Assembly (NCBI GenBank): GCA_034620365.1
Contig: JAQGEQ010000243.1
Coordinates: forward strand, 1 to 64,000
Origin: Pegea sp. RAD2-039
Lineage: Eukaryota; Chordata; Thaliacea; Salpida; Salpidae
Length of the DNA: 64,000 nt
Direction: 5' to 3'
Below the pieces are notes generated by a model, which did not search any database, was not told the DNA's origin, and was given only the letters and a program-made list of their open reading frames with translations. Of the stretch, positions 1 to 15,700 are shown piece by piece. A program made the translations under genes and the position numbers. Positions within the stretch are counted from its first letter, which is position 1, and each line of letters begins with the position of its first letter.

Positions 1-300
1 CTATAATTTTTTATTTATTTAGGTATTTTTTAGATTTTTAAAGATTTCTTTCATATAAAAGTATTTTTTGCTTCTATTATTTGCTTTCGACATAAGTTTT
101 CAATTTATAATTTTTTGTATTTTTATTCATTTTAATAAGCAGTTATCTAAAATGATTATAGTTCAGATAATTTACTCAAGTGTTTAAATAAATTAGGAAT
201 AAATATTTAAAGGTTTTCTATTATTCAAGCAAAAAAATCTTTCATTTTAACATTTCTCTTCTTTTGTTCGAAATTTAAAATGAAAAAAACTTTTATTCAG

Positions 301-1563
301 ATTCAAAATTATGTTGGTTCAGCTATTATGAGGGTTTCACTTGTTACAAAAGATAACCCACCGAGACCTCATCCACATAGTTTAGTTGGCAAAAATTGTA
401 AAAACGGAGTTTGTATCATCAACTTAGATGAATCTAATGGAATGCTTGGAGTGTAAGATGCCATAATTATCCTGTTTCAATATTAAAAAATGAGTTTTGA
501 TGTCTTCAGATTTACAAATCTTGGAATTCAATGCGTAAGAAGACGAGAAGTAAGATCTGCGATTGAAGATCGATTAAAAAGACACGTAAATCCGTTTGAG
601 ATCTTGAAAGAAGAAGAACTGTTGGATGTTGATTTAAATGTAGTCAGATTATGTTTTGAAGCTTTTCTTCCAGATGAGAAACAGGATTATTCTTTAAAAT
701 TGGAACCTGTAGTTTCAAATGCAATCTATGATAAAAGTCAGTCCAAAGTTTATTTAAAGTTACTTCAATTTTTTTTATACTTTTCTAGAAGCGACCTGCT
801 CTTCAATTTTAAAGATTTGTAGAGTTGATAAACTTTATAGTAAGAGTTCTGGAAACGAAGAGATTTTTTTATTATGTGACAAAGTACAAAAAGGTGACTT
901 TGTTTTAGTTTTTATAAAAATTGCTGGAAAACAGTGGATTTCATTTTATTATAAACAAGTTGTTGATAATATTCTTGACTTTCTGTAATTATCGATTTTA
1001 AAGAACTTAATTTATCATTTTAGAGGATATAGAAGTCGTGTTCTTTGATGATGGATGGGAAGCTTGTGGAGAATTTTGTTTATTTGATGTCCACAGACAA
1101 GTTAGTTCCTGTATTCTGTTTTTTATTGAAAAATATCATTAAAAGTTTGAAAAATTTCTACAATTATTTGGGTATCAACAAATTTATATATTAATTTACC
1201 AAATAAAAATCTCAGCTTTTTCAGTTTAAAATTTAATCACTTTTACTCAATTTAACTGAATGTTTTCGAAAAGACTGTTTTCAATTGTTTTAAAATGATT
1301 TTTCAGGTAGCAATTGTATTTAGGACACCACCGTACAAAAGTATTTCAATTCAAAGACCTGTAAGAGTTCATTTCCATCTTAGAAGACCTTCGGATAAAG
1401 AAATAAGTCAACCTGTTGAGTTTTTTTATCTGCCAGAAAAGCATGGTGTGAATTTGAAATAATTCCATGTTCACACTTTTGTCTTAATTTTATTCTCTTT
1501 TTTACAGCTTGTCTTTTAGGACAAAAAAAAATTAGAATGATAAAAAGAAAATTATCAGATTAA
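301..1563 (+). CDS. REL: Rel/NF-kB family transcription factor, 3' part (5' end lies before the window)
   Basis: Dorsal/Rel/NF-kB-type DNA-binding transcription factor of immune and developmental signalling. Exons read as 301-452, 510-736, 789-893, 1024-1100, 1307-1445 and 1508-1563, all in phase, giving 251 visible residues. Family landmarks in order: [20 protein letters not shown] and [14 protein letters not shown] (Rel-homology N-domain), then [45 protein letters not shown] and [19 protein letters not shown] (IPT/dimerisation domain). The DNA-contact loop of the N-domain (RFRYECEGR in relatives) must be on an earlier exon outside the window. No ankyrin repeats or transactivation tail follow. 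The last exon is my choice: a 62-bp intron adds a basic stretch, [10 protein letters not shown], where Rel proteins carry their nuclear signal. Without that intron the frame stops at 1462. AATAAA lies at 1861-1866. Identity is secure; the dorsal versus p105 subtype and the last exon are not. Confidence 0.85.
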
Positions 1564-4324
1564 ACTGCAACAACAATCATAAAAGATAATCTTGTTAATT
1601 TCTTGTTGGCTATGTGGAGTTTGATTGACGTATGTTTAAAATTAGTGACTCTAAATTTGTTATTTTCTATTTTACTCTGCACAAATTGAAGGCCATTCAA
1701 ATTCAAATCATTTTCATTTTATTCTTCTTTTTGTTTAATACTAGTTTCATGCTCTTATTTCAATTGAAAATAGTTTATGCGCTTAACTTACATGGTATTA
1801 TCAAAATATTTGCCAAATTAATTTCTATCATATTTCAATCGATTTGTTTAGACTGTATATAATAAAGTTTTAGAAATAATTCTGTTTATCTTTTGTTTTA
1901 CGTAGTTGTGTTTTTCTAAGGTAATATTTGGTAGCCGAAAAGTTTTTATAAGTCAAGGTAACTCTTCAAGCTGAATTGTTAATTTAACCTTTGTAATCTA
2001 TGAGTTTCAATCACAATTACCAGTAGTACAAATAAAAGGTTTAATTATGCTGTCAAATAAGAACACAATTCTGTTTCATCGAAGAATTAGAAATTGTTAT
2101 TGTATAACAGTCTTCTATTTATCATAAATTGCCAAATAAAATAACTCTCAAATTACAATTTTTTAAATAAATAGATAAAGCTAAAAAAGTCTTAAAGTTA
2201 AAATACGATTTAAAAATTTCAGAAGATAATTTCACTAAAATCATCTAAACAGCCCGATCATCTTTAATTTAAACCAGTCACACTAATCTAATTTGTTCTA
2301 GAAATTCTTATTGTTACATAAAACGAAGGCTGGCATAAAAATACAAGTTTTTAATGTTTGAATACAAATACGATATGAGAAAGAGAAATATAATAAAGAG
2401 AATAATTTGAATTTATATTTACCAAATGATTCGTAAAAATTTATTTCAAAGTGAAGTGTACAAGTTGGTAGAAAATTCAAACTTTGTACAAATTTTAAAG
2501 CATTTTTAGTTTAACTTTAAAATGCTTCGACTTGCTGCGAGTTTGTATATAATAATTTATTAATATACAGCTTTATTAAAAGAAGTATATAGCTTTACTA
2601 AAAACAATATATAGCTTTATGTCAACTTTAAACTTGTTTGACATTAACTATAATATTACAAAGGGTATTTGATTATAGATAATTTGACCTTATATTGTTT
2701 GGCTTATACTGAAATAGTTTGCATATTTACTTTTGAATATTTGCAGCTGATAAACGAGCAGCAATAAATTTGTATCATTACTAAAAAAATTTAAAAAAAT
2801 TGTTTGAACAAGAGTTTGTAAAAGAATGCAATGTAACTGCCTTAATTAGAATCAGAGTTTAATATAGTTTAAAAAATTCATTTTTTTATTAATGTTTTAT
2901 ACTTCTACAACTTTAATAATAATGTTTTAACTGACCAAAGTTTGAAATTTATTTCCTAATAATTTCATTCCAGTAAGTTATTAAAAATATTGCAAAAAAA
3001 AATTGCATCAAAATTTTGTTAGGAATTTTATGATTTTAAGTTTTAACAGTATAATTAAAATAAGAAACTTCTAGGTAATCACCAGATATAGATTGTTCGA
3101 CTTTCCTCTGAGCTACAAACCGCTTAAAATCTTTATGAAACGCGTCATCATAATAACACATGAGTACCAATTATCAGCGAAAAATTAGCTCCAGCAGCCT
3201 AAGGTACAAACTAACACCATATAACAATCAACTAAGGTAAAAGCAAAAATAAAAATGTTTCATAAATTAATTAAAAATGGAAAGCTTTATGGCAGCAAGA
3301 TAAATCCAAAAAAACATAGAAACTTACTAAGGTATACACAACAACATTGATGCAGGTTGTCTACAAATTATCAATATCTGGTCTTTGAAAAATATTTATT
3401 ACTTTTGTAACTTATTTGTAACTATTTCTAAAAGGGGTTTTCCCTTTTAGCCTGTAGCAACTACTTTGTAATTTCCTTTAAATTCTTCTAGGTTATATTC
3501 TGATTAATTATAATCACATATTATTTGTACACACTTGATAGCCAAATAATATTGTATTTGTATGATAATAATCTACTAATAACTCTAAAATACAGTTACA
3601 CAAAATGTTCACATGAAATTATCAATCTCTATTAATTTATAAGTATTTTTATTCTATTTGTATTTTGTAGTCGAATTGATTGAGATAAATAAAAACAATT
3701 TTAAAGAAATCAACTTTATATTTAGTAAAAGATCTGCTAAAATCTTTCAAGTTTATTTAGACATTGTCTGATAATAAAGTTTATTTTTATAAATATTCTG
3801 TCTTAGTATCTTTAATTTTTCTGTTCGTGAGTATTATTTGAAAATATAATCTTTATTAAGTTGTAATTTATAAATTTAGATAGTTGTATTTTATAAATCT
3901 TTATTTTCATTTTGTTTAAAGAATTTAGTTTTACATTTTGCTATTATTTTTAGTTTTATTTACTTAGTATAATGAAATAACTAAGTTATCAGAAAATAAA
4001 TAGTTTTACTTTGATATTTTAAATATGTTTTCTTTTTGTATACTTTTTCTATTTTCTATTTCATGAAACAACAAATAAAAACATATCATGAAAATAAATA
4101 CCAATTGCATTAAAAGCTTTGATTATTAGTTTTGTAATTTTTTATAACTAATTTACTTTCACGAAAAAATAATTAAAATGATAAAAATTGATCAGAATTA
4201 TAATATTTACATTTTTGTGTTTATAAAAAATTGAAGTTTAAGTTTAAACGAAGTCTAAATTATTTTTCTTAATTATGTATTTTATTTTTTAGATTTTTTT
4301 TGTTTATATTATTGTAATTATAAA
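1564..4324. other. Intergenic, AT-rich, no gene seen
   Basis: Holds the 3' UTR and AATAAA (1861-1866) of the Rel gene, a short tandem repeat near 2570, and presumably the VCPKMT promoter. Open frames here (for example 1632-1862 and 2298-2480 on minus) are hydrophobic, low-complexity translations of AT-rich DNA with no family resemblance. Confidence 0.6.
2564..2621. repeat. Short tandem repeat, about 3 imperfect copies of a 22-bp unit
   Basis: The core TATAnAGCTTTAnT recurs three times (near 2564, 2586 and 2608), with A-rich spacers after the first two copies. It lies between genes and no function is evident. Confidence 0.6.
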
Positions 4325-5074
4325 ATGGAAGTAACTATAGATGGACAAAAAACTTTTATAAGAGAAATTACTTTGTCACATCCTGATGAAGAAAAAGAAA
4401 TTGATTTAGTAATACATCAACTTGGAGTTGGTGAAGAAGGCTGTGTGGTTTGGGATGCTGCTTTAGTTCTACTTAATTATCTATTCACTGCCATGGGACA
4501 AAAGTCAGTAAAAAATAAAAATGTTATTGAGTTAGGCTCTGGTACTGGTGTGGTTGGATTAGCTGCTGTCTTAGCTGGAGCTTCTTCTGTATGTATAACT
4601 GATTTGCCAAAACTATTACCACTAATTAATTTAAATATTAAAGCTAATTATAAGATTCTATCAAATATTCTGAAACCAAAGGATGAAAAAAGTTTCAAAA
4701 GACTCTTTGTGCAGCCATTAACCTGGGGTGAAAATGAAGATATACAATCATATTTCAAATATGTTCAAAGCAATTTTAATGTAGATGGCTCAGAAAAGAT
4801 TGCCGCTTGTATTTTAATTGCTGATTGTATCTATTATGAAGAAGGGATGAGAAGTTTATGTAAAACTGTAGTAGATCTTTTGAGTTTGTTATCAGAGTCT
4901 TCATCAGTTTTGTGTTCATATGAGTATAGAACAACTGGCAACAAAGAATTGATTTTGAAAGAGTTTTATAGTATTTTGAAAAGCCATAATATTCAAATTA
5001 ATTTTATTAGTCCTAATGAAATGCATCCTACTTATAGATGTGATGAGATTTTTATTGTTGAGTTTAAAAAGTAA
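4325..5074 (+). CDS. VCPKMT: VCP-lysine methyltransferase (METTL21D type), single exon
   Basis: Seven-beta-strand SAM-dependent protein-lysine methyltransferase of the METTL21 family, 249 residues (human VCPKMT about 229). In vertebrates this enzyme trimethylates a lysine of the AAA ATPase VCP/p97 in the cytosol. Visible landmarks: GCVVWDAA (39-46), SAM-binding motif I IELGSGTGVVGLAA (68-81), the post-I acidic residue in ITDL (91-94), WGE (134-136), ADCIYYEE (166-173, the family's D-x-x-Y region), and SYEYRTTGNKEL (198-209), which resembles the vertebrate VCPKMT segment CCYEQRTMGK more than METTL21A-C. The ATG follows a long AT-rich stretch and no upstream in-frame exon is needed. No AATAAA occurs between its stop and the PDHX start 117 bp downstream, so the two may share a transcript. 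Substrate is inferred from family only. Confidence 0.9.
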   Translation: MEVTIDGQKTFIREITLSHPDEEKEIDLVIHQLGVGEEGCVVWDAALVLLNYLFTAMGQKSVKNKNVIELGSGTGVVGLAAVLAGASSVCITDLPKLLPLINLNIKANYKILSNILKPKDEKSFKRLFVQPLTWGENEDIQSYFKYVQSNFNVDGSEKIAACILIADCIYYEEGMRSLCKTVVDLLSLLSESSSVLCSYEYRTTGNKELILKEFYSILKSHNIQINFISPNEMHPTYRCDEIFIVEFKK

Positions 5075-5191
5075 AAACTAATTGTTTTTTTTAATATATT
5101 TATAAAAACTTAAGGAGATGTTTTTATTTTAAAGTTGTTATATTTGTTTTAATACCAGATATAATTTTTAGGATGTACTTAAAGCATTGAT
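5075..5191 (+). promoter_or_regulatory. 117-bp intercistronic spacer between VCPKMT and PDHX with 3' splice-acceptor-like sites
   Basis: The spacer has no AATAAA. It has two pyrimidine-rich AG sites, one ending at 5158 (TACCAG) and one at 5171 (TTTTTAG), the latter 20 nt before the PDHX ATG. This is the arrangement expected of a downstream cistron resolved by spliced-leader trans-splicing, but it could equally be a compact promoter. No spliced leader is seen in the window. Confidence 0.35.
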
Positions 5192-8100
5192 ATGTCATTA
5201 AAGTTGTTGCAGGCAAGTTTGAAGCACATTTCTCAGCAGAGAAAATTGTTTCTTCAATCTTCTTATTATGGTAAGTATTTACAGAAAGAATATTATCATA
5301 ATTTCCAATAAAATATTTGAAAGTTTTAAATAATCAAATGAATTTTTTACAGTTCCAACAACCTTACCGATGCCTGCCTTGTCACCAACCATGCTTCAAG
5401 GTTCTATAGTACAATGGCTTGTTAAAGAAGGTAAGATAATATCAACCATTTGATGATGGTATAAACCATTTGATGATGGTATCGATCATTTGATGATGGT
5501 ATCAACCATTTGATGATGGTATCAACCATTTGATGATGGTATCAACCATTTGATGATGGTTTCAACCATTTGATGATGGTATCAACCATTTGATGATGGT
5601 ATCAAATATTTGATGATGGTATCAACCATTTGATGATGGTATCAAATATTTGATGATGGTATGAACCATTTGATGATGGTATCGATCATTTGATGATGGT
5701 ATCAACCATTTGATGATGGTATCAACCATTTGATGATGGTTTCAACCATTTGATGATGGTATCAACCATTTGGTGATGGTATCAACCATTTGATGATGGT
5801 ATCAAATATTTGATGATGGTATGAACCATTTGATGATGGTATGAACCATTTGATGATGGTATCGATCATTTGATGATGGTATCAACCATTTGATGATGGT
5901 ATCAACCATTTGATGATGGTTTCAACCATTTGATGATGGTATCAACCATTTGGTGATGGTATCAACCATTTGATGATGGTATCAAATATTTGATGATGGT
6001 ATGAACCATTTGATGATGGTATCAACCATTTGATGATGGTATCAACCATTTGATGATGGTATCAACCATTTGATGATGGCATCAACCATTTGATGATGGT
6101 TTCACGCAGTTTGTTTTAAGGTGATCAAATTGAAGTTGGTGATGCACTTTGTGAAGTCGAAACAGACAAAGCTGTTGTGACTCTGGAGTCAAATGATGAT
6201 GGTTTCATCGCTAAAATTCTGGTATTTTTCAAAATAAATCCTCTTAATTTTATCTTTGCATAACTTTCCTTTGATTAGCTTCATTTTGTAGATTTTGAAG
6301 CTAAAAAACATTTTTGTGAATTTTTGATTTCAAATTTTTATATTCTTTTATCTTATCTTTTGTATTTTGAAATTATCAATTTGTTTGCTTTGTAGAAATC
6401 AGACGGATCAAAAGATATAAAAATATCCTCACCAATTGCAATTATTGCTGAACCAGGTGAAGATATTGCTAAAGCTGCACAGTTTGTACCTCCAGATGAA
6501 GCATCATCAAAGTCAGAAGCTCCATCTAAGTCAGAAGCTTCATCTAAGTCAGAAGCTTCATCTAAGACTGAATCTGATCTAGTTTCAAATGCAGTTTCAG
6601 CTTCAGTAAAATTTAATAGGTATTCAATGAAAGTTTTATTTTATTATTTAAAGTTTTTTCAGTTAAGAATATTTTTTATGATTGAATATATTTATAAATT
6701 TATTTCTTTCAAAAGTGATAGTTAGCTAAAATAAATCGAAATACATCATTTTTCTGAATAAGATCAAATATTAAAAATTAAAAAAAACGTTTCAAGCTAG
6801 ATACATGCTTAAATACATCCATCAACAAGTTACAAAAAAGTTTCAAGATTTCAACAGTATATGTCCTCATCTGATTGTACGATAGCAACTTTAATTTCTA
6901 AACCAGCTATTAACTCAAAGCTCACATAGAGCTGAAAAATTTATCTAATAGTCAATCCGACATCTTATCTTTTAAAAGATCTCAGACAAAAAACGTTTCT
7001 TTAAATAAATGAAAGATTGAGCATCCTTTAAACAAACACTCTAAATCTACATTTAATTTAGTTTTTTAGTAAAAAAAAACAAATAATAAAATTGTTAAAT
7101 GTTAGATTTGTAGTGATAATAAAACCAAAATACAAATATTCAAGTTACGTTTTCTTAAAAATTTTTCTATTGTTAGCATAAATCAAAGTGGTGTAGCAAA
7201 AAAAATCAAAATTTTAAAACAGTAATTATATAAAAAAGTTGGCTACAATGTAAAGCAAACCATTTCTTCAAAGAAATTCAATTTAACAGAAGTATGATCG
7301 AAATTTGACGCCTTGAGAGTTACTACTGTTCTATCTGGTAGTTTCTACTGAAATATTTTCAATTATCTTTGATGTAAACTGATAAAATAGCTTGAGTTAA
7401 AATCATCTTTTAACAAATTGTCTTTTTGCTACTAACAATTTTCACCTTGATAGTTTTTACAAATCTAACATTCAAAAAAAATTATGGATTTTAGATAGAG
7501 CAAAAAACTCCTCAATACTTAAAAGATAAGTTTTTCTTCTAACTTCTATTTTGTAGTCTGAGGTGTTTAGTTATTTTTTACAAAACTTTAAACAACTATT
7601 ATAGAAATATTAGCAACTGAAAAAAAACAGTTAGAATTTGTCATCAAAATATAGAATTTAAAATTATGATACTAAAATAAGAATTAATACTTAAATAAAT
7701 TGGATGGAATTGGAATAATTGAATTAAATAAAGCAAGATTACGAGAACGATAAATAATGATTAAAAATAATTATGATTTCAAATTAATTGAATTATTCTA
7801 ATTTGACGATCTTTCAATTGAAATTGATTCTTACAGTCAGTAATTTTACATAAAGTTACGAAACATTTTCAGCTCTTATGTGTCCCTTTCACCTGCTGTC
7901 CGCCACACATTGAACTGGTACAACGTCCAGGCTGATCAAGTCACTGGTACTGGTCCAAAAGGAAGAATACTTAAAGGGTAACGACTTATTTATCTCAATT
8001 GTTTGATGGAATCTTATTTCTAATTTTACTAGAGATGTCTTGAAATATATTTTGGATAATAATCTAAAGACTCAATCGTTTATTGAAAGAGTTAAAGCTC

Positions 8101-9701
8101 CTGTAGCTGAAGTACAGACTACAAAATTAGAAGAATCTCCTAAAAGAGCTGCTTCTGTTACCTCTGCATCTATCTCAGAGGTAATAAACTGACTTCAAAT
8201 TTTCAAATAAATTTTGAAATATTTCTTAATATTTTCAATTTCTTTTTTTAGTATGAAGATATCCCCCTAACAAATGTTCGAAAAATTATTGCTCAAAGGT
8301 TAACTGAGTCGAAACAAACAACTCCTCATAGCTACATAAGTGCAGAGTGTAACGTAGACTCGATTTTAAAGATACGAAATCAATTGAAAAATGGTTTGTA
8401 GATCTTCATCATTTGATCTTTGTATGATTTGTGAGTGATTTTAGATGGAGTTAAACTTTCAGTGAATGATTTCATCGTCAAAGCCGTCGGACAAACTTTA
8501 CAAGAAGTAAAATCATTGAACAAAGTTTGGAAAGGTGAAATATGTGAAGAGAACCCGACATCAGATATCTCTATTGCTGTAGCCACACCAGGCGGCTTGA
8601 TTACTCCAATATTAAAAGTATTTTCAGTTATTTTACTTCTTTAAACTTTAAAATTATATTTTGTTGCTTCTGAAGTTGATACAACTTGCTTACCTGTTTT
8701 ATCTGCTAATTTATGTTTTTTACTTAAATTTTTATCTGCACAAAATACTTTTGACAACTTTTACAAGAAGCAAGTCCTTGAAATCTTGTTTGACCAAACA
8801 GAAAGGATTTTGAGATCATTTTAAGCACTTGACATGAATCTAACTTAGGATTTTTTAGATGATAATTGTTTGTGTTAAACGATTAAATACTTTATATAAT
8901 TACAATTTAAAATAATTAACAATTTATCGTTTGATAAAAAACTTTCCAAAAAAGATTAAATTTAAAAATTAAAGTGAAAAAAGAAACAGAATATTTTTTT
9001 TGAACCAAAAATCTTGGATGTTTGTTGCTGTTGGCAAATGAAGCTAAAGTAAAAGTCTAATTACAAAATGCACTTTCAAAAGAATGAAAATGATCTGTCA
9101 AAAAATCGATGTTTTTATCGCAAGGATGATTGATATTTATCTGCGATCTTCGAGAATCTATTTGTTAATTATCTCTCTCTCAATCATCATCGAAAAAAAT
9201 TTCTGCTGGTTGTTTCCAAGCTTATAAAAATAGAAAATTTCTCGCAAATTGAAATGATCAATTTTCTTAGTGTGTGGAATCAAAAGGTCTTAAACAAATC
9301 TCAGAAGAGACTCGGGATTTAGCCGAAAGAGCTCGGATGGGGAAGTTGAAACCAGATGAATTCCAAGGAGGGTCTTTTACGTCAGTGGAGCAAATCCCTG
9401 ATCTCAATTTGCTTGATTTAAACTTAATTATATTTGTAGAATCTCTAACTTGGGAATGTTTGGAATTAGCAACTTCACAGCTGTTATTAATCCTCCTCAA
9501 GCCTGTATCATGGCTGTCGGAGCCACTAGAAAGGTCCTTTCAGCTTCCTCCATTGAAGATGTTGATGAAAGTCATTCAGTAGAAAACTTAATCACAGTAA
9601 CTCTAAGTTTTGATGCAAGAGTAATAGATGAAAATCAATCAGGTGGTTTTCTGTCAATCTTCAAACGCAAACTTCAAAATCCATTTGAACTCATCATATG
9701 A
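5192..9701 (+). CDS. PDHX: Pyruvate dehydrogenase complex component X (E3-binding protein), mitochondrial
   Basis: Structural subunit of the mitochondrial pyruvate dehydrogenase core that tethers dihydrolipoamide dehydrogenase (E3). Exons: 5192-5270, 5353-5430, 6121-6221, 6396-6619, 7873-7977, 8033-8180, 8252-8393, 8445-8617, 9271-9380, 9440-9701; 473 residues. Order: basic, serine-rich mitochondrial presequence (1-26); one lipoyl domain (27 to about 105) with lipoyl lysine K69 in EVETDKAVV; Ser-Lys-Glu-Ala linker repeats; E3-binding domain ([16 protein letters not shown] ... [13 protein letters not shown]); catalytic-fold domain ([19 protein letters not shown] ... [12 protein letters not shown]). 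The acetyltransferase histidine of the E2 motif DHRxxDG is absent: the sequence reads FDARVIDE, like vertebrate PDHX (SDSRVVDD) and unlike DLAT. Intron 2 is almost entirely minisatellite. AATAAA at 9792-9797. Convergent with ARID3. Confidence 0.93.
5431..6120 (+). other. PDHX intron 2, made almost wholly of minisatellite
   Basis: Donor GTAAGATAAT (5431-5440), 33 repeat units of 20 bp (5441-6100), then a 20-nt acceptor segment ending TTGTTTTAAG at 6120. Phase 1 on both sides restores the G-D-Q-I-E-V of the lipoyl domain, so the boundaries are firm. A second AG lies 11 nt upstream (6109), but using it would shift the frame. Confidence 0.9.
5441..6100. repeat. Minisatellite, 33 copies of a 20-bp unit, with 180-bp higher-order blocks
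   Basis: The consensus is ATCAACCATTTGATGATGGT. Variant starts ATCGATC, ATGAACC, TTCAACC, ATAAACC and ATCAAATATT, and the variant TTGGTGATGGT, recur in a fixed order. Three successive blocks of nine units (5521-5700, 5701-5880, 5881-6060) share that order; 5701-5840 and 5881-6020 are identical. Each unit contains the inverted pair ACCAT / ATGGT separated by 6 nt, and neighbouring units make ATGGT / ACCAT across 4 nt, so the array can fold as repeated small hairpins. No unit contains AG on the coding strand. Confidence 0.97.
6620..7872 (+). other. PDHX intron 4, no internal feature seen
   Basis: AT-rich, 1253 bp, flanked by clean GT and AG sites (TAATAG|GTATTC and TTTTCAG|CTCT). No open frame or repeat of note. 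Confidence 0.7.
8618..9270 (+). other. PDHX intron 8, no internal feature seen
   Basis: 653 bp between the codon pairs that join PILK to CVESKGL. No coding or repeat signal seen. Confidence 0.7.
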
Positions 9702-12700: not shown

Positions 12701-15700
12701 TAAACTAAATTAGTAACTATAATTTTTACATTTTCATAAATTTTTGTTTGATACAATAAAAATATTAGAGTTTCAAATGATTGAAAAGGAAGATAATCAA
12801 ATATTAAAAAGGTATTCATTTTTATTATAAGAGTACAACTTTAATAATCCAAGTATCCATAAGTCATAAATAATTAATTTTTAGTGACCATGGTTAGAGT
12901 TTTAATATACAACAAAACACAAACATCTTAACTACAATCAAAATAAAAAGAATATCAAAGTATCTCTAATTTTAATGATTAATTAATTTCAATTTTTGTG
13001 ATTAATTTTATCTTGAAGAGATAACAATTAAAAAGAATTAAAATAATCGTTTAAAAATGATTAGTTTAATTTAATATACAATATTAATGAATGAAAAATA
13101 AACTATTGGTGTTTAATTAAACAAAAACTTGAAACAAACAGAAAATGATTTGCTAGCGAGTCAATCAAAGTTTATGAATCAAGTAAAGAAAATTATATTT
13201 GAAAAAAAAAATTTGAAGGTTTCTATTTTTCATACAGATGTTAGATGATATTTTAGTGACCGATGAAAGACCAATAAGTCTCCTGTAGCGAAAATGAGAT
13301 TATTTTTACCATATGGCCAGCACATTTTTTGCAGTTTATTTGATCTCTTAAAAAAACTTTTTAAAAAACAAAAATCAGGAATTTGTTTAACTTGAATTTG
13401 ATTTTTTTTTTGATTTTATTTTTAGTTGAATATTTTTGGCTCAATATCATATTGGTTTTGAGAAACTTGAATACCTTAACAGTTGTTAGTAGCAAAAAAT
13501 TTCTGTTTCAAATGTTATAAAAACAGTTAAAAAAGTTTACCTACAAAAATATATTCAAAAAATAAAAAAACAATCTTGAAAATTAAATCAATTTCACGAT
13601 ATATAAAACTATTTAAACAACTTTTACAAGATGTCAAAAATAGAAAATCTAAAATTACTATGAAAAGCTCGTCTCCAACAATATTTTATTTTTTAAACTT
13701 TTGAATAAATCATGTTGTCGAAAAAATCCGTTACTATACTCACATGTGTTTCAAATAACTATTTATAGATCTCTCAATTAAGAAACGAATTCTTTCAACT
13801 ATTTCGTCCTTTACCAACCATAAGGCAATTCTTTAGTACTATTCTATATTATAATCATCAGAATAAAAGGAATTTCATTGATGAATAGCATTGATAAATT
13901 AGCTTTTTCATAAAAGTTTTTCGAGTAATTTTTGCCCTAGTGAACAGCATAAAAGTTTAATGACATATGAAAGGTTGTAAAATGTAGAAATAAATATTAG
14001 CCATATGGTAAACGTGTGAGAACGAAGAATAAGCAACATGTGAACATACGTTCGTATAATATAGGCACAAGCCTGTGACTCTAATCTGTTCATATTTATT
14101 AGAATTTAAGTTTCATAATACTTCAGTATCAAAAAAAATTGTGTCAACTTGTATTGAGCTGTCTTATAGTGATCAAAAGCCAATACGATGGAATATTACA
14201 TGAAGATAGCCAGATGGTGAACGGATTTTGCTCTAGAGGGTGCCGATTAATCGATTCGCCGATTTGTATTTATATTTAATTTTGGGACAAACTCTCAGCA
14301 AAACTTCAATTAAAATTAGATTTTCCAGAATAATGAATAATAGAAACAACTTAAAGTTGATTCTTTTGTAGAATTATCTTCAATCTTAAGATTCTAATGT
14401 CATTTAAACTATCGCTCAAATGTTATCTGTAAAACTATAGCTAAATTAAACGCTGTGATAACATTACCCATGACTCCCACTGTAATTTGAGTCTTCAGCT
14501 TAACCAGCAGTTATCTCAACTAGGGTCCAAGCTCTTAGCTTAACGCTTGGTTGGAATTGTTCAATCAAAGTATCAACACTATCTTTGCATAATTTCGCTT
14601 CTGTAAGTCAGATCTTTACACCCATCACTACAAACTTCCTTCTTGCTGATGAACAATATTGCAAGTCAACACAAGTGTTCGGTACACCACCAATTTTTAT
14701 TGTATTTAGTACACTAACAATTTGAAGAACTTCTGTATTGAGAAAAATACATAATGATACTTTGAAAGCTAATATCAAAGAAAATTGGTGAACTGTAAAT
14801 TATACATAAAATTTATCGAGATACATAATCTTAAAATCATACTACAAAAATGTAAGTTTAACTTTGATGAAGGGTAATGTTTGTTTTAGATGCTACCAAT
14901 AAATTAAATAGCTGACGTCATTAGGTTTGCAATGTTTTCAGTTTTGTTGTATACCAGCGGTTTTTCCGCATCATCAAACAAGTTTTTTTGCAAAATAGTA
15001 AAAGAGGCAGAAAAAGAATACAACAAAAACAAGCAAAAACAAACAAACAACACAAATACAAAATAGTGAGTTCACAGACTGATGGTAGTAAAAGTATACA
15101 ACTTATACTACAATCAAATTGTAAACATAATTGTACGTTAAACATTACAATCATTAAAAGTTTTTTCAGTTAAAATATATTTAGTTCAATTTTTGACTAA
15201 ATCTTAACCTGTTCCACCTGTTCTAGCATCTACAACGATGCAAGATTTTGTTAAAAAAAAATAAAAACTACAAATCAAAACAAAAATCAACCTATAGCTT
15301 TTTGCAATAAGGCAAAAACATTGTAAACAATTTACACAAACTAATATAGACAAATCGCTTTAAAAACTAAAATTACACCCAAGAGTTTTAGAGAGTTTAT
15401 GAGTTGTAAGAAGTTAATACTGAAAGTATACTACTCCAGTTTAAACATTGCTTTTCAATTTGAAACAATTATCTTACAGGTTAAATCAAGCAGCATTAAA
15501 CGAAAGAAATTATCACTAAATATATTTTGAGAGGCAGGTAAGAAAAGTTAAAACTTCAAAAGCCATACACATTACTATAGCAACAGAGTTACACTAAATA
15601 AAATTCTCATTCGTCTTTTGTTGAAGGATTATAAAACGATAAAGTTGTAATTGTAAACATCCCAGATTTACATCAGATCTTGGGACGGTTTTTACCTTTA

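Follow-up and report, generated by a model that had tools for sequence, protein, structure and literature searches.

Introduction

Intron growth is usually credited to transposons. Minisatellites, tandem arrays in which units of about 7-100 bp are repeated in many copies, are also found in introns, and the vertebrate intronic VNTRs resemble the present case in being minisatellites within an intron. Those vertebrate arrays sit in much longer introns, whereas here the intron is the array.

The nearest known kind is the mirage minisatellite of amphioxus. In the Adh3 and globin genes of amphioxus the unit of these arrays spans an exon-intron boundary, regular splicing was reported from RT-PCR, BflGb6 haplotypes were found to differ in carrying six and three units, and a bearing on intron gain was proposed (PMC3087553). 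The arrays described below share with them the presence of minisatellite-like arrays at introns of single genes and a differing copy number, seen here in DLAT. They differ in that the units in PDHX and DLAT are wholly intronic and the array is nearly the whole intron; the distance between array end and exon is 5-16 nt in PDHX and DLAT, and 3 and 10 nt in pyruvate carboxylase (PC).

The Drosophila Y genes kl-3 and kl-5 have megabase introns made of simple satellites, which are transcribed as tandem repeats (PMC6508621). On that account they resemble the introns studied here in being lengthened mainly by tandem repeats, but ours measure 0.2-0.7 kb, lie in metabolic genes and have a different unit at each locus; the PDHX intron, at 690 nt, is far from megabase size. 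In C. elegans, CeRep25B is described as a near-palindromic and mostly intronic minisatellite with clusters on chromosomes III and, less, II (PMC4039745). Near-palindromic units and a mostly intronic position are common ground with that description; each array here, in contrast, was seen at one locus only, among the matches listed in our searches.

A literature search, mainly outside subscription journals, did not find introns consisting wholly of minisatellites described. Here, in a small, AT-rich animal genome, we describe three introns that are nearly all array yet keep their splice signals intact. One of the three occurs in two lengths within the same assembly, and together they point to a route of intron growth other than transposons. 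The same introns are sites for measuring array length per generation, the limits set by splicing, and whether array or intron came first.

Results

The PDHX gene and its second intron

The window, by which we mean the whole stretch of DNA analysed (64,000 nt), contains a gene that was modelled by hand:

5192..9701, + strand: PDHX, the gene for the E3-binding protein of the pyruvate dehydrogenase complex; 10 exons, 473 aa
5353..5430, + strand: PDHX exon 2, ending in phase 1 (VKE/G)
5431..6120, + strand: PDHX intron 2, 690 nt, GT-AG
6121..6221, + strand: PDHX exon 3, remainder of the lipoyl domain (ETDKA motif)
8394..8444, + strand: PDHX intron 7, 51 nt, of the ordinary short type, with the position and phase of DLAT intron 6

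Pfam finds lipoyl (PF00364, E 5e-19), E3-binding and 2-oxoacid dehydrogenase acyltransferase domains in the predicted protein. Its top match among solved structures is PDHX 6h60_A with 359 bits, and DLAT chains are close at 357 bits. PDHX and DLAT can be told apart by the active-site histidine of the catalytic domain. The motif reads FDARVIDE, without the histidine, in this gene and CDHRVVDG in a separate DLAT gene; we therefore identify the gene as PDHX because its catalytic-His site reads F-D-A-R and a separate DLAT with D-H-R exists in the genome. Splicing out intron 2 in silico joins V-K-E-G-D-Q-I in phase 1 inside the lipoyl domain, and the Pfam lipoyl match bears out the placing, in an earlier note on this DNA, of the array intron within the region that encodes this domain.

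In the hand model the PDHX introns measure, in order, 82, 690, 174, 1253, 55, 71, 51, 653 and 59 nt. A transposon in the 1,253-nt intron 4 was considered as a contrast case and rejected, since the genome search with this intron matched only itself, the contig overlap described below and one 73-nt stretch at 79%.

Shorter repeats are also present in coding sequence. An 18-bp repeat of 3.8 copies lies at 6498-6566, in the PDHX linker that follows the lipoyl domain, and further coding repeats are found in the DLAT linkers (15-bp) and in the presumed DBT gene (21-bp), the periods all being multiples of three. An intronless lysine methyltransferase-like gene (PF10294) occupies 4325-5074 on the PDHX strand and ends 117 nt before the PDHX start codon.

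Anatomy of the array

Intron 2 of PDHX divides as follows:

5431..5439, + strand: 9 nt of donor-side flank (GTAAG...) preceding the array
5440..6104, + strand: tandem array (TRF: period 20, 33.2 copies, consensus TATCAACCATTTGATGATGG)
5661..5840, + strand: block of nine units (12-20) with its string of unit types
5841..6020, + strand: block of nine units (21-29) with the same string as units 12-20, a 180-nt block duplication
6105..6120, + strand: acceptor-side flank, 16 nt, with CAG at 6107-6109 as a possible earlier acceptor and the predicted acceptor AAG ending at 6120

With a period of 20 and 33.2 copies the array is a minisatellite, and TRF gives it 92% matches, 0% indels and a score of 1148. 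It makes up 96.4% of the 690-nt intron, whose ends read GTAAG...TTTTAAG. The intron bounds 5431-6120 and the position of the array had been given in the earlier note, and TRF and the hand gene model agree on both. The note's division of the intron into 10 nt of donor, 33 x 20 nt of repeat and 20 nt of acceptor needs qualification: 5441-6100 does comprise exactly 33 x 20 nt in that register, with eight unit types of which the commonest accounts for 15 of the 33, but the repeat overruns both edges and leaves flanks of 9 and 16 nt. Its comparison with the other short introns of the gene, at 51, 55 and 59 nt, has the lengths right, yet these are only the three shortest of eight (the others measure 82, 174, 1253, 71 and 653 nt). 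Likewise, removing all units but one does leave 50 nt, but this is weak evidence for a short founder because a period of 20 always allows some removal of units that lands any length within 44-63 nt.

The array retains a trace of how it was enlarged. Identity between units is highest at a lag of nine, where it reaches 0.58; the remaining lags between 1 and 14 give 0.05-0.30. The string of units 12-20 is that of units 21-29, and the last visible step was therefore the duplication of a 180-nt block.

A coding array was rejected. Although the length of 690 nt is a multiple of three, the retained intron would carry 23 stops in frame with the exons, and the array is therefore non-coding; the longest stop-free run in the six frames of the intron is at most 39 codons. 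Splicing could also use the CAG at 6107-6109, whose end lies 11 nt upstream of 6120. This would shift the frame, and on the strength of the protein the acceptor ending at 6120 is preferred.

Specificity of the repeat unit in the genome

We searched the genome of origin (105.7 Mb, 387 contigs) with the 18-nt core of the PDHX unit, allowing up to 2 mismatches, and obtained 122 matches, compared with 10 for the reversed control. Among the 100 matches listed, 66 belong to this array (33 here and 33 in a contig overlap), 11 lie on contig C11 and 23 are scattered; the C11 matches, among those listed, fall in a 27-bp array of another unit. At 0-1 mismatch, 52 of 53 matches lie in the array and its copy, with a single site elsewhere. 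This set is taken as complete because the list is ordered by mismatches, the 22 unlisted matches each carrying 2. No second array of the PDHX unit was present in the 105.7 Mb among the matches listed. The whole of intron 2, used as a query in a search that skips common words, matched only itself and the overlap on contig C236. Dispersed related copies, such as introners or other transposon-derived introns would have, were thus not seen with the whole intron in that search, nor, beyond the single site elsewhere, with the unit core at 0-1 mismatch. The window has no Rfam match at gathering score.

The overlap extends well beyond the intron. Positions 1-8023 of the window equal C236 713913-721935, that is, 8,023 bp at the very end of that contig with zero mismatches, and C236 and C237 seem to carry the same assembly path twice. 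Being an exact contig overlap, the C236 copy is not an allele, and the assembly therefore holds no second allele of PDHX; the 8,023-base identity of these neighbouring contigs also means that the stretch is counted twice in the assembly.

The C11 array itself (L066, 631-949) has 11.8 copies of its 27-bp unit, all 100% identical, and the unit holds the words TACTAAC and GGTAAAAGT.

Array introns in DLAT and pyruvate carboxylase

DLAT is present on contigs C192 and C193. The C193 introns measure 52, 49, 51, 44, 52, 50, 553, 54 and 49 nt, and those of C192 have the same lengths except for the seventh, which is 452 nt; eight of the nine are thus 44-54 nt long and the remaining one 553 or 452 nt. 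This intron 7 opens with GTAAG, continues in 20-bp units like TGTCCACTGACCTGTCCTCT and closes with 27 nt that combine a partial unit with the acceptor. The array makes up 97-98% of it. There are 26 full units in C193, one of them a 21-mer, and 21 in C192, while the intron ends are identical. Coding sequences agree at 1781 of 1782 sites between the two contigs, and over the eight remaining introns taken together the agreement is 398 of 401. We take the two copies to be alleles, in which case the array would be a VNTR with 26 and 21 units; they may also represent a recent duplication. A search with the DLAT unit placed all of its 34 matches on C192 and C193.

The two paralogues share little of their intron layout. 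PDHX intron 7 and DLAT intron 6 are the only pair with common position and phase (one of the nine PDHX introns), and DLAT has no intron at the position of PDHX intron 2 in either of its lipoyl domains; DLAT was therefore rejected as an outgroup for the founder of the PDHX array. Comparison of intron positions gave no counterpart of either array intron in the other paralogue, and these introns may therefore have been born together with their arrays. The shared pair, PDHX intron 7 (8394-8444, 51 nt) and DLAT intron 6 (L056, 3787-3836, 50 nt), both contain TCATCATTTGAT. A gene for a Bcl-2 domain protein lies beside DLAT and points to an animal. At L056 7150-7501 on C193 there is an 11-bp array of at least 32 copies that continues past the stretch examined.

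The third case came from a tandem-repeat scan of gene loci retrieved in a lipoyl/biotin family search. It is an intron of the pyruvate carboxylase gene, on the minus strand of L037 at locus positions 2708-2940 (233 nt), between QYTNLHFQ and AHSMGLG. It consists of 10 nt, 9.8 copies of a 22-bp unit and a 3-nt acceptor (CAG), 94% of it being array, and the last unit itself becomes the acceptor. The joined protein aligns with mitochondrial pyruvate carboxylase (3bg3_A) without gaps across the junction. Nine of 11 matches to the PC unit fall in its own array and the other two are single sites.

PDHX, DLAT and PC thus present three introns with three different units and one architecture; likeness among the units is not significant, the lowest of six comparisons having 111 of 1000 shuffles as good.

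Frequency of array introns

Eight gene loci, each examined over roughly 3 kb surrounding its matches, came from the lipoyl search: PDHX, DLAT, PC, two that we presume to be DLST and DBT, and three unnamed. Array introns were present in three of the eight, or in two of seven found independently, PDHX being given. Four arbitrary 10-kb stretches, scanned for arrays of 90 nt or more with at least 3.5 copies, gave none. TRF over about 159 kb, a sample of partly overlapping stretches with one locus chosen for its array, gave seven such arrays, namely the three array introns, one coding linker and three of unsettled place. Splice words beside arrays were tried as a genome-wide test and rejected, since the crude version did not discriminate: when donor and acceptor words were sought on the + strand, four of the seven arrays passed, two of which are not known introns, and the minus-strand PC array failed.

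These results suggest that short introns in this genome can lengthen by copying their own middles. A broader reading is that in-place amplification of a 20-22-nt core is a general mode of intron lengthening here, in which many introns of the ~50-nt mode, each on its own, turn into arrays that vary by whole units and have only the splice signals as their bounds, and intron length becomes a fast, near-neutral VNTR trait genome-wide; we regard this as conceivable, though somewhat short of an even chance.

Likeness between repeat units and short introns

Subtraction of all but one unit, done for DLAT as for PDHX, leaves 52 nt. Better evidence for a short-intron founder than the 50-nt subtraction in PDHX comes from the shortness of the flanks and from the remaining DLAT introns, which measure 44-54 nt. 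The units themselves were also compared with short introns. The PC unit resembles the next PC intron (52 nt), a likeness equalled by 0 of 200 shuffles, and PDHX intron 7 (51 nt; p 0.005), the PC p value being flattering because the likeness was seen by eye before it was tested. Against 15 introns of 44-82 nt, a set in which two other PC introns were placed by eye, the PDHX unit gave a summed p of 0.005, and the DLAT unit showed no likeness to them (p 0.315).

Discussion

The PDHX array is probably a locus-specific minisatellite that grew in place within a short GT-AG intron, and the same process is likely to have acted independently in DLAT and PC. The growth would have begun with an early duplication of a stretch of about 20 nt between the donor and acceptor signals, giving the first tandem. 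Slippage or unequal exchange of multi-unit blocks may then have lengthened it, the last visible block being one of nine units and 180 nt. Growth would have halted at both ends where splice signals and exons are selected, the middle being under no such selection, and since the whole array would be spliced out, its length is presumably near neutral and its growth tolerated. The same process would have acted independently in at least two other genes, DLAT and pyruvate carboxylase. The earlier note had already favoured tandem duplication in a short intron over transposon insertion, and this is the best-supported reading in view of the intact splice ends, the block duplication, the recurrence in DLAT and PC and the lack of another array among the matches listed.

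A different source for the first unit is suggested by a resemblance to the neighbouring exon:

6194..6211, + strand: stretch of exon 3 resembling the 3' end of the array (6091-6107), 17/18 with one gap

A piece of exon 3 covering the DDGF codons might have been copied by local template switching beside the acceptor and then amplified, somewhat as in a mirage minisatellite. This stretch agrees with TGATGATGGTTTCA-CGC, which forms the 3' end of the array region, at 17 of 18 positions with one gap; the only 14-mer common to the array and the rest of the window falls within it and, apart from the array and exon 3, occurs at just four places genome-wide, and 2 of 5000 exon 3 codon shuffles score as high. 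Under looser scoring against the whole array, however, equally good scores come from 56 of 2000 codon shuffles and from 26 of 1973 pieces of the window. At three other places in the DNA examined the score is higher (31-33, compared with 30), and GATGATGG is a low-complexity sequence. The exon 3 stretch is also fixed by the protein, DDGF being conserved in the lipoyl domain and present in DLAT as well. Moreover, the source would lie about 90 nt away and not contiguous with the array, as a mirage would need, and no 10-mer is common to the DLAT array and the remainder of its 7.5-kb locus. An exon seed is thus an unlikely origin, though one with some points in its favour. It is very improbable, in turn, that the array is maintained by selection because hairpin-forming repeats fold the intron and help or regulate splicing. 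The PDHX intron RNA does fold better than 20 of 20 shuffles (-245.5 against a mean of -201.7, z -7.4), near-palindromic stretches can be seen by eye in each PDHX unit, and the PDHX array is free of AG. The DLAT array intron, on the other hand, folds worse than 100 of 100 shuffles (z +7.2), for which reason a shared RNA structure was rejected, and its array holds one or two AG; since folding and AG absence differ in DLAT, neither is a shared requirement. An AG-free 20-mer is estimated to be common by chance, copy number differs between the two DLAT contigs, and neither folding nor AG content in PDHX and DLAT gave signs of selection on the arrays.

The remaining alternatives concern the array as foreign or as false. 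That a preformed satellite, or an array borne by a transposon, was inserted here is extremely unlikely, and nothing was found in its favour: no other array of the PDHX unit exists among the matches listed, which disfavours an origin from a dispersed satellite, the repeat reaches to 9 and 16 nt from the exons without other inserted sequence, and three genes carry three different units. We consider it scarcely more credible that the array length is misassembled or that the boundaries are wrong, with CAG 6109 or retention as the true state. There is a single assembly, in which the C236 and C237 copies look like one path, and the CAG at 6107-6109 could serve as an acceptor; yet the variant units stand in ordered blocks, which argues against an invented array, the 6109 acceptor would shift the frame and retention would bring the 23 stops, and the joined protein matches PDHX. 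Growth in place within a short intron is accordingly the reading we prefer for what is seen at this locus.

Other sequence features of the genome

The 105.7 Mb contain 1,972 copies of a 14-nt palindrome, TGATGACGTCATCA (reversed control 0), among them those at positions 14913, 21084, 24479 and 34704 of the window and in L056, L057, L061 and L063; our literature search gave no explanation for it. Exons, introns and flanks all contain its core, TGACGTCA, as do six of the eight short introns of DLAT. Protein kinase matches are clustered on contigs C265, C260, C75 and C21, where they lie in single open frames that are mostly some 300-350 or 410-460 codons long; the clusters look like a lineage expansion.
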